Below, piece after piece: positions 16,687 through 18,642 of a stretch of 64,000 bases of DNA. Location of the stretch: positions 50,934 to 114,933 of the forward strand of contig NZ_BAAAYN010000030.1 in the NCBI RefSeq assembly GCF_039536245.1, given 5' to 3'. The DNA comes from Cryptosporangium minutisporangium. GTDB taxonomy: Bacteria > Actinomycetota > Actinomycetes > Mycobacteriales > Cryptosporangiaceae. The notes below the pieces were generated by a model that searched no databases, was not told the DNA's origin, and saw only the letters and a list, made by a program, of their open reading frames with translations. Both the position numbers and the translations under genes were made by a program. The number at the start of each line of letters is the position of its first letter. The first letter of the stretch is position 1.

Positions 16687-16727
16687 GTGTCTCAAAGGCC
16701 AGCAACCCGCCTGAACCTTTGAGACAC
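16687..16727. promoter_or_regulatory. Inverted repeat upstream of the C26 hydrolase gene
   Basis: GTGTCTCAAAGG (16687-16698) and CCTTTGAGACAC (16716-16727) are perfectly complementary with a 17-base spacer. It lies 22 bases upstream of the C26 ATG. It could be an operator with half-sites nearly three helical turns apart, or a leader hairpin. Confidence 0.5.
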
Positions 16728-16860
16728 GTCGAAAAGCTCCATCGTCTTTCGGCAGCATTGCGGAACTGTGTCGGGTGAATACCGTCACATTGAATCCAGC
16801 ATCTGGACACAAGCGCGGGTCGCACCACCTCCCGCGCTCGGGATGTGTCAGTATCGAGCC

Positions 16861-16887
16861 GTGACCCGGTTCTGCATTACCAGCTAG
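16861..16887 (+). CDS. cimA leader peptide (MTRFCITS)
   Basis: GTG 16861 opens an 8-codon ORF ending in TAG 16885-16887. It includes TGC-ATT-ACC (Cys-Ile-Thr); ATT is a rare isoleucine codon in this genome, and isoleucine and threonine are both tied to the pathway that cimA feeds. It ends exactly where the attenuator stems begin. No Shine-Dalgarno is obvious; CAGTAT 6 bases upstream may be a -10, making it leaderless. Confidence 0.55.
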   Translation: MTRFCITS

Positions 16888-16946
16888 CGCGCCAGCACGC
16901 ACCACGCTGACGCGCAGACCTCCCACGAGCGTGGGGGGTCTTTTTG
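16887..16946 (+). promoter_or_regulatory. cimA transcription attenuator
   Basis: Three mutually exclusive structures are visible. Stem A: 16887-16896/16906-16915 (10 bp, one mismatch). Antiterminator: CCACGCT 16902-16908 with AGCGTGG 16928-16934 (7 bp). Terminator: 16917-16926/16931-16940 (10 bp, GAGC loop) followed by TTTTTG. A ribosome stalled at the Ile codon would cover the 5' arm of stem A, freeing 16902-16908 to pair and disrupt the terminator. The U tract is unusually good for such a GC-rich genome. Confidence 0.75.
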
Positions 16947-17022
16947 TTGGTCCCGGGTCTGCTCTCCTGCTGCGCCCGGGCCCGGTTCGAGCCGTACCCG
17001 ACCGCGCTGAGAGGTCCACACG

Positions 17023-18642
17023 ATGTCCACCGCGCCCACCGCTCCTTTGGATGACAGCTTCCACGTCTTCGACACCACGCTCCGGGACGGCGGACAGCGC
17101 GAGGGGATTTCGTACTCCGCGACCGACAAGCTCGCGGTCGCCCGGCTGCTGGACGAGGTCGGTGTCGGGTTCATCGAGGGCGGTTGGCCGGGCGCGCTGC
17201 CCACGGACACCGAGTTCTTCGCCCGCGCGCGTGACGAGCTGTCGCTGAAGCACGCCCAGCTGGTCGCGTTCGGCTCGACCCGGCGCGCCGGCGTCCGCGT
17301 CCAGGACGACAAGCAGGTGGCCGCGCTGCTCGAAGCGCAGACGCCGGTCGTCTGCCTGGTGGCGAAGTCCGACGTCCGGCACGTCACCGACGCGCTGCGG
17401 ACGACCTACGAGGAGAACCTGGCGATGGTGCGGGACACCGTCGCCTACCTGGTCGGCGAGGGCCGCCGGGTGTTCCTCGACTGCGAGCACTTCTTCGACG
17501 GCTACGAGCACGACCGGGACTACGGGATCCGGGTGCTGGAAGCCGCGTTCGAGGCCGGTGCCGACGTGGGGGTGCTCTGCGACACCAACGGCGGCATGCT
17601 GCCGATGGGCGTCGGACGGGTGGTGTCGGAGGTCATCGCGCGGACCGGGTTCCGCGTCGGCATGCACGCCCAGGACGACACCGCGTGCGCGGTCGCCAAC
17701 ACGCTCGCGGCGGTCGAGGCCGGGGCGACGCACGTCCAGGGCACCGCGAACGGCTACGGGGAGCGGGCCGGCAACGCCGACCTGTTCGCGGTCATCGGCG
17801 GGCTGGTGACCAAGATGAACCGGCAGGTGGTGCCGGAGGAGTGCCTCGGCGAGCTGGTGCGGGTCTCGCACGCGATCGCGGAGATCGCGAACATCGCGCC
17901 GGACACCCACCAGCCCTACGTCGGCGCGAGCGCGTTCGCGCACAAGGCCGGCCTGCACGCCAGCGCGATCAAGGTGGCGCCGGAGCTCTACAACCACCTC
18001 GAACCCTCGGTCGTCGGCAACGACATGCGGATCCTGGTCACCGAGATGGCCGGTCGCGCCTCGATCGAGCTGAAGGCGCGTGAGCTGGGGATCGACCTCA
18101 CCGACGAGCCCGACGCGGTGGGTCGGGTGGTGTCGCGGGTGAAGGAGCTGGAGGCCTCCGGCTCGTCGTTCGAGGCCGCGGACGCGTCGTTCGAGCTGCT
18201 CGTCCGCTCGGAGCTGGAGGGCGACGCCGCGCCGCTGTTCTTCCGCCTGGAGTCCTACCGCGTCCTGTCCGAGCAGCACGAAGGCGGGGCGGTGGTCAGC
18301 GAGGCGACGGTCAAGGTGACCGTCGACGGCGAGCGGGTGATCTGCACCGCGGAGGGCAACGGCCCGGTCAGCGCCCTCGACCGCGCGCTGCGTCAGGCGC
18401 TCACCCGGTTCTACCCGACGCTCGCGGACCTGGAGCTCGCGGACTACAAGGTCCGGATCCTGGACGGCCGGTACGGCACCGACGCGGTCACCCGCGTGCT
18501 GATCGACACCACCGACCACACGACCGAGTGGACGACGGTGGGCGTGCACGAGAACGTCATCGAGGCCTCCTGCCGGGCACTGATCGACGCGATCGAGTAC
18601 GGCGTCCGCCGCGCCGGAGTCCCGGCCCTCGCCCCGTCCTGA
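17023..18642 (+). CDS. cimA: Citramalate synthase
   Basis: It condenses pyruvate and acetyl-CoA to (R)-citramalate, giving threonine-independent 2-oxobutyrate for isoleucine. The 539-residue protein has the DRE-TIM fold (FDTTLRDGGQREG near 17-29, metal-binding HxH within TAFAHKAGLHASAI) and a C-terminal LeuA-type allosteric domain (from about 420). The long form and sequence pattern match CimA rather than 2-isopropylmalate synthase. ATG 17023 is preceded by GAGAGG. The product feeds LeuCD and LeuB, both in this window. Expression is probably controlled by the attenuator just upstream. Confidence 0.93.
   Translation: MSTAPTAPLDDSFHVFDTTLRDGGQREGISYSATDKLAVARLLDEVGVGFIEGGWPGALPTDTEFFARARDELSLKHAQLVAFGSTRRAGVRVQDDKQVAALLEAQTPVVCLVAKSDVRHVTDALRTTYEENLAMVRDTVAYLVGEGRRVFLDCEHFFDGYEHDRDYGIRVLEAAFEAGADVGVLCDTNGGMLPMGVGRVVSEVIARTGFRVGMHAQDDTACAVANTLAAVEAGATHVQGTANGYGERAGNADLFAVIGGLVTKMNRQVVPEECLGELVRVSHAIAEIANIAPDTHQPYVGASAFAHKAGLHASAIKVAPELYNHLEPSVVGNDMRILVTEMAGRASIELKARELGIDLTDEPDAVGRVVSRVKELEASGSSFEAADASFELLVRSELEGDAAPLFFRLESYRVLSEQHEGGAVVSEATVKVTVDGERVICTAEGNGPVSALDRALRQALTRFYPTLADLELADYKVRILDGRYGTDAVTRVLIDTTDHTTEWTTVGVHENVIEASCRALIDAIEYGVRRAGVPALAPS

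Follow-up and report, generated by a model that had tools for sequence, protein, structure and literature searches.

An isoleucine-codon leader with two abutting hairpins upstream of cimA: a probable ribosome-mediated attenuator in Cryptosporangium minutisporangium and other actinobacteria

Known attenuators and the leader of cimA

In trp- and his-type attenuators of enterobacteria, the leader peptide contains codons for the end product of the pathway and the position of the ribosome decides termination, while in pyrBI-type attenuators a ribosome close behind RNA polymerase antiterminates, this closeness arising through nucleotide-dependent pausing. The citramalate route to isoleucine begins with the cimA product. 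For actinobacteria, leaders or regulatory elements have been predicted for trp, trpS, ilvB, leuA, leuS, cys and ileS (PMC1262725), and the accessible part of that source reports no conserved structures for other amino-acid pathways. Neither cimA nor citramalate appears in the accessible text on eight S. lividans leader peptides (PMC8079986), and citramalate is also absent from that of PMC2965389. The original prediction of an attenuator at this locus knew of no described case for cimA, and we likewise found no published cimA leader or attenuator in the open-licence literature, judged by titles.

The systems most similar to this locus are the uORF attenuators of ilvBNC and ilvB1, namely C. glutamicum ilvL (PMC11857589, PMC10272879) and its M. 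tuberculosis counterpart (PMC13236596), which according to the accessible parts of these papers combine a short ORF carrying branched-chain codons, a hairpin, an adjoining terminator and a branched-chain target. Attenuation of actinobacterial ilvB depends on leader codons (PMC13236596, PMC11857589), and the M. tuberculosis ilvB1 leader lost its induction when LVVI was replaced by AAAA (PMC13236596). As computed from the positions given for C. glutamicum, its LVVV codons start 19 to 10 nt before the antiterminator, overlapping the slot of 10-12 nt occupied by the sensor codon of cimA leaders. The leader described here shares with these systems its branched-chain codons before a terminator-adjoining hairpin, and the ilvB leaders analysed below have the same slot and a similar junction. 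It differs from them in its target, cimA, its Ile sensor and its 8-codon ORF ending at the stem base, and cimA leaders also have no detected anti-antiterminator or conserved shared bases. Furthermore, leaders of the cimA type span many families, whereas ilvB-II has been reported from Corynebacterium (PMC10272879, accessible part).

The window, by which we mean the entire 64,000-nucleotide stretch of C. minutisporangium DNA analysed, contains the following features, all on the forward (+) strand:

16844 to 16854 (+): extended -10-like element TGTGTCAGTAT, with hexamer CAGTAT at 16849-16854; the GTG starts 6 nt later
16861 to 16887 (+): leader ORF GTGACCCGGTTCTGCATTACCAGCTAG, read from the sequence as MTRFCITS* with stop codon TAG; an in-frame ORF is found in 129 of 129 leaders
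16876 to 16878 (+): putative sensor codon ATT (Ile), 11 nt upstream of the first base of stem A
16887 to 16896 (+): stem A, 5' arm GCGCGCCAGC, beginning at the G of the TAG stop and covarying with the 3' arm
16906 to 16915 (+): stem A, 3' arm GCTGACGCGC, whose last base adjoins the terminator
16916 to 16941 (+): terminator hairpin, AGACCTCCCAC (16916-16926) with GTGGGGGGTCT (16931-16941), 11 pairs and a 4-nt loop
16941 to 16945 (+): T-run of the terminator, from sequence and terminator scan
17009 to 17014 (+): GAGAGG, likely ribosome-binding site of cimA, from sequence only
17023 to 18642 (+): cimA, citramalate synthase (TIGR00977, 628 bits; cut-off 450)

The ORF, stem A, the terminator and an alternative pairing of CCACGCT (16902-16908) with AGCGTGG (16928-16934) all lie where the original prediction had placed them, as judged by sequence and fold check. 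Stem A is paired at nine of its ten positions, the exception being the mismatch C16892.A16910, the ORF has a single Ile codon, and a terminator scan over 1 kb found one terminator compared with 0.3 expected. Given the -10-like element 6 nt before the GTG, the leader transcript is probably leaderless. The motif TG[TA]Gn[CT]AnnnY ends 6-10 nt before the candidate start in 64 of the 129 leaders analysed below, and occurs twice in 11,570 bases of control sequence. A promoter scan did not find a sigma-70-type site at the cimA leader, and TANNNT, present in only 16 of 129 leaders, was rejected as the -10 box in favour of the TGTGnCAnnnT-like element.

The gene upstream of the leader is a divergent Peptidase_C26/glutamine-amidotransferase-like gene. 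The divergent intergenic region also holds a perfect 12-bp inverted repeat (GTGTCTCAAAGG, window 16687-16698, and CCTTTGAGACAC, 16716-16727), possibly an operator of the amidotransferase-like gene, which is not present in the stretch examined upstream of cimA in a congener (L002).

The RNA of 16861-16946 folds better than 200 of 200 dinucleotide shuffles (z -3.0). Its predicted fold is stem A beside the terminator, formed without any ribosome, with energies of -13.8 kcal/mol for stem A, -19.9 for the terminator and -9.8 for the alternative pairing. A covariance model (R2) built from 17 leaders of other genera, with the host genus left out, matches window positions 16873-16951 at 75.6 bits (E 8.3e-23, on a rough calibration), and the leader is therefore not a chance arrangement. 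Across the whole 64 kb this model found no second full-length match; its partial matches are one on the reverse strand to the same terminator (E 8e-4) and another at E 0.28. The combination of ORF, stem A and terminator exceeds chance, confirming the leader as a real feature. No Rfam 15 covariance model matched at the leader (E up to 1) or in 12 leader loci, and a T-box or riboswitch was rejected given the lack of a matching Rfam family and stem A loops that vary in both length and sequence.

Distribution of the leader and identity of its sensor codon

The cimA gene is present in 52 of 61 genomes, the host counted, and upstream regions were compared in 50 of these 52 (without G016 and G035). 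A full-length leader match, ranging from 89 down to 26 bits, was found at 35 of the 50 related cimA loci and was missing at 15. At 14 of the 15 leaderless loci a leuB-like gene lies directly upstream on the same strand, and all five that were checked more widely have the order ilvB, leuB, cimA on one strand. Based on this gene order, cimA genes without their own leader may depend on the ilvB leader.

A class-wide search returned a leader match in 199 of 296 genomes at E up to 0.01. Typing 121 class-level loci by best match assigned 116 to cimA, four to ilvB and one to neither, in a list sorted by score and hence tilted toward cimA. A draw from the phylum gave matches in 55 of 296 genomes at E up to 1e-4. 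Twenty loci taken from matches outside the class comprise 15 before ilvB, one before cimA, one before leuA and three directly before neither. The leuA leader (L326/L359) reads MSQNLLLT* and its gene matches TIGR00973 at 713 bits. Two of these three loci directly before neither gene (L335 and L343), and also L350 and L351, have an Ile-rich leader followed by leuB, with cimA further down, both genes lying above family cut-offs in the L335/L343 operons. A leader-like match at L337/L352 precedes a prephenate-dehydratase-like gene (245 bits, under that model's cut-off), with no Phe codon among the last codons before the stop. A pattern scan of named genomes retrieved at least 119 stretches, from genera including Micromonospora, Actinoplanes, Blastococcus, Geodermatophilus, Pseudonocardia, Cellulomonas, Knoellia and Nakamurella; among the matches listed, 110 precede cimA, five are genuine leaders truncated where the stored locus ends, and four, left out of the counts, are chance matches within other sequence.

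Searching the host genome with a model built from 20 leaders, the host cimA leader among them, produced two strong matches, the cimA leader itself (E 1.6e-21) and an ilvB leader (E 9.8e-10), and a third, partial match on the reverse strand at E 0.19. The ilvB leader is located at G000:C30:47280-47363, beyond the window on the same contig, approximately 20.4 kb upstream of the cimA leader. It encodes MRSTLILVLS* with a TAG stop, has a stem and a terminator, and contains Leu and Val (GTA) codons. Among 30 ilvB loci, 29 were matched by the cimA model at E up to 0.1.

Leader counts omit reverse-strand rows consisting of the terminator only (7 of 107 in set A4, 17 of 52 in A2), and identical sequences were removed. 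The resulting set of 129 includes two ilvB leaders (L143, L158) and one leader matching neither cimA nor ilvB (L164); one class-level hit was retrieved twice (L099, L206), and the order- and class-level sets share a few genomes. The model that retrieved these leaders incorporates a short junction and the four final codons, and statistics on them are thus partly biased. A scan blind to the ORF, yielding 115 leaders, removes this bias for the codon and leaves it for the junction.

An Ile codon lies 10-12 nt before stem A in 122 of the 129 leaders (54 of 60 and 16 of 18 in non-redundant subsets), and the ORF-blind scan likewise has Ile in this slot in 111 of 115 leaders (30 of 32 and 6 of 7 non-redundant), with ATT accounting for 92 of the 111 codons. 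All 127 leaders of the set of 129 that do not precede ilvB have Ile within one codon of the sensor slot. Thr, encoded by ACC in the host leader and named alongside Ile as a possible sensor in the original prediction, occupies the codon after the sensor in only 11 of 129 leaders, which argues against that part of the claim. Of 29 ilvB leaders 28 have a usable ORF (L075, one of the 28, had its ORF start misparsed), and in 26 of these 28 the slot is occupied by GTA (Val). Within the cimA-model set GTA stands in the slot in just two leaders, both of which precede ilvB. The share of ATT among Ile codons is 155 of 293 in leaders compared with 19 of 377 in cimA bodies (Fisher P 2e-47), and that of GTA among Val codons is 31 of 46 in ilvB leaders compared with 36 of 1448 in cimA bodies (P 2e-34); both P values are nominal, as kin leaders are not independent and cimA bodies serve as the reference both times. 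Judged from these sequences, the sensor codon changes with the downstream gene, from Ile for cimA to Val for ilvB.

The stop codon coincides with the stem base in 87 of the 129 leaders and falls within the hairpin in the remaining 42, whose ORF continues through the 5' arm. All four genomes of the host genus have a Cys codon (window 16873-16875) before the sensor, reading FCITS with one Ile left, and three leaders of a distant family (f23; L099, L102 and L108) similarly read C-I-T-T.

These patterns make it extremely unlikely that no regulator is present, and that the locus is instead a terminator shielding cimA from upstream transcription beside a chance ORF, or encodes a small peptide with a function of its own. 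Insulation would be conceivable for an intrinsic terminator placed between divergent genes, but the conserved Ile slot with its rare ATT codon, peptide N-termini that by eye are variable, the placement before cimA of 110 of at least 119 pattern matches among those listed, and the matching ilvB leaders with Val and Leu codons all speak against this explanation.

Covariation, ribosome position and the antitermination step

Compensatory change was observed in both hairpins. The alignment of 20 leaders has both-sided changes at four of nine stem A pairs and 28 cells changed on both sides compared with 9.3 in shuffles; its count of both-sided pairs (six) was equalled or exceeded in 36 of 500 shuffles and its number of further pair types in 497 of 500. 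Across the class, both-sided changes occur at 15 of 21 pairs (score 0.328, compared with a mean of 0.167 after shuffling and at most 0.115 after sliding), including five of nine pairs in stem A and nine of 11 in the terminator. All five covariation measures lie above 500 of 500 shuffles, for an alignment (A4) that was fitted to the structure and still includes its seven partial rows. Swapping partners among the 129 leaders changed the values for stem A and terminator arms from -18.25 and -18.26 (native) to -14.16 and -14.58, respectively, and 0 of 2000 permutations were as low in 18 non-redundant leaders.

The region proposed originally as antiterminator behaved differently from these arms. 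The stem A loop and 3' arm paired with the terminator loop and 3' arm gave -12.45 kcal/mol for native vs -12.64 for swapped partners (n=129), 1422 of 2000 permutations were as low in the 18 non-redundant leaders, and 29 ilvB leaders likewise gave no sign of coevolution. Runs of at least seven alternative pairs were equally frequent in native and swapped combinations of the 18 non-redundant leaders (22% each). Among non-redundant leaders, searches for a third helix that paired the ORF, the loop or arms of stem A, or 80 nt downstream with terminator or stem arms found none clearly above swapped controls. One candidate, the ORF end with the sequence following the T-run, gave a weak signal (full cimA set, 21 of 2000 permutations; ilvB, 75 of 2000) and was rejected when it disappeared in 60 less redundant leaders (1217 of 2000). 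Directly after the T-run (window 16946-16949), GTTG or GTTT occurs in at least 79 of 129 cimA-set and at least 18 of 29 ilvB leaders, and a pairing partner for it, looked for in both kinds of leader, was not found. Only stem A and the terminator thus appear to covary; the two can coexist, and no third helix was detected.

We consider a classical three-structure attenuator, in which a stalled ribosome would let CCACGCT pair with AGCGTGG to the exclusion of both stem A and the terminator, to be very unlikely. Its seven pairs do exist in the window, and pairing of the P1 loop with the 3' side of the terminator has been proposed for Corynebacterium ilvB-II (PMC10272879, accessible part). In addition to the lack of coevolution, however, the longest alternative run is only four pairs in a congener (L003; seven in L001 and L004, ten in L006), and the stem A loop ranges from 3 to 54 nt among the 18 non-redundant leaders. 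The direction of control would also be wrong: with the footprint assumed below, a ribosome stalled at Ile leaves stem A foldable, and it is a ribosome at the stop codon that would favour the alternative helix. The cimA leader resembles trp- and his-type attenuators in its end-product codons and in the role of ribosome position, and departs from them in that no mutually exclusive, coevolving third helix was found.

We consider it probable, from comparison of leader sequences, that the locus is an isoleucine-responsive ribosome-mediated transcription attenuator of cimA consisting of an 8-codon leaderless ORF and two abutting hairpins. It has the hallmarks of an attenuator, with end-product codons in a short ORF and a conserved, covarying intrinsic terminator between ORF and gene. 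With charged Ile-tRNA, the ribosome would reach the stop codon and cover the 5' arm of stem A, leaving the RNA before the terminator single-stranded, and transcription would terminate. With scarce Ile-tRNA, the ribosome would stall with ATT in the A site and its leading edge at the base of stem A, which could then fold. Clamped between the stalled ribosome and the terminator with little slack, stem A would prevent the terminator from zipping at RNA polymerase, resulting in read-through into cimA.

The leading edge of the ribosome was placed 13 nt from the start of the A-site codon, a footprint rule taken from other bacteria. Under this assumption a ribosome at the sensor leaves stem A foldable, defined as pairing of at least half of its 5' arm, in 129 of 129 leaders, and a ribosome at the stop does so in 0 of 129. 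Since it is foldable in the one state and masked in the other, stem A is likely the hairpin of the starved state in this model, termination belonging to the state without it. The same folds run counter to the logic proposed originally, in which stalling at Ile would allow an antiterminator to replace stem A. With a ribosome at the sensor, the terminator is kept in the minimum-energy fold of all 129 leaders, unlike in trp-type antitermination, and with one at the stop in that of 128, and pairing energies therefore do not account for antitermination.

Steric block of the terminator by stem A is inferred because no third helix able to displace the terminator was found and the two hairpins share no pairs, and we regard this step as possible, at somewhat less than an even chance. 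With stem A fully exposed, the junction between the hairpins is 0, 1 or 2 nt in 94, 33 and 2 of the 129 leaders, respectively. Strict use of the footprint, with the sensor codon in the A site, masks the initial bases of stem A and gives a junction of 2 nt in 64, 3 nt in 34, 0-1 nt in 29 and more in 2 of 129 leaders, and the argument from lack of slack is correspondingly weaker; with the sensor in the A site, ilvB leaders have a wider junction than cimA leaders. Because stem A forms without a ribosome, the model either needs the stalled ribosome or predicts high basal read-through. The single Ile codon of the host leader and the 15 of 50 cimA loci that have no leader also count against the explanation. 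In C. glutamicum, mutating the start codon of the leader peptide lowered expression by 80% (cited in the accessible part of PMC11857589), and since a ribosome-free leader is thus off there, stem A alone may not suffice. Regulation by Ile via stem A, well supported by the leader comparisons, is a firmer part of the explanation than the steric step. The proposed mechanism is similar to that of pyrBI in using no RNA antiterminator and distinct from it in that stem A would remove the slack.

The main rival, which we consider unlikely, is competition at the boundary between the hairpins as in C. glutamicum ilvBNC, with stem A acting as an antiterminator that pairs into the terminator base. In the window this would involve C16884-G16917 and U16885-A16916 with A16886 bulged, the hairpins trading a few bases. 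In support, the C. glutamicum antiterminator (36-79) and terminator (77-113) share boundary bases, which mutations support (PMC11857589, accessible part), and with the 5' flank free and the 3' arm of the terminator absent, at least one of the first four terminator bases pairs upstream in 78 of 129 cimA-set and 21 of 29 ilvB leaders. However, the 5' partners sit inside the stalled ribosome. When RNA is exposed from one base before stem A, such pairing falls to 28 of 129 and 17 of 29 leaders, respectively, leaving 101 of 129 cimA-set leaders sharing no bases and one-base sharing possible in 17 of 29 ilvB leaders; from the first base of stem A it falls to 10 of 129 and 0 of 29. Pairings of the ORF with the terminator and with stem A are furthermore without coevolution, unlike what the three-hairpin scheme of C. 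glutamicum, with an anti-antiterminator formed by the ORF and a trinucleotide shared at the boundary, would lead one to expect.

Pause hairpins are usual in attenuators, and stem A could be merely such a hairpin, synchronising RNA polymerase and ribosome, with antitermination by another route such as RNA polymerase closeness or Rho. This would fit with the ability of both hairpins to coexist, but it requires neither the short junction (at most 2 nt in all 129 leaders with stem A fully exposed, a model-biased count) nor the fixed sensor distance, and we regard it as improbable.

Isoleucine control in actinobacteria

On this evidence, the original prediction was right on its main point, a ribosome-mediated attenuator of cimA sensing Ile, as indicated by homologous leaders, a covarying stem and terminator and a conserved Ile codon, and wrong on the antiterminating structure: in the alignment of related cimA upstream regions stem A and the terminator covary and the third pairing does not. 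The logic is that of ordinary amino-acid attenuation on a target for which no report was found, in an economical and widely conserved form with no detectable pairing antiterminator.

We tentatively propose, while holding it to be somewhat doubtful, that these leaders represent a phylum-wide class of attenuators (cimA, ilvB, leuA, leuB-cimA) without a competing antiterminator, in which a ribosome-gated hairpin abuts and sterically blocks the terminator and the sensor, often a rare codon (ATT, GTA), is fixed 10-12 nt from the hairpin, a shift of three codons deciding the outcome. If an abutting hairpin suffices, attenuation would be simpler than in the textbook scheme and would be overlooked when only helices that exclude one another are sought. 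The host genome offers a natural pair for codon specificity in its two leaders of like build, with Ile for cimA and Leu/Val for ilvB, and knowledge of such leaders is useful in practice for obtaining branched-chain acids or their precursors. The leaders also constitute independent evidence that these cimA genes serve isoleucine synthesis, and with them the citramalate route to isoleucine would gain a direct sensor of its product across many actinobacterial families.
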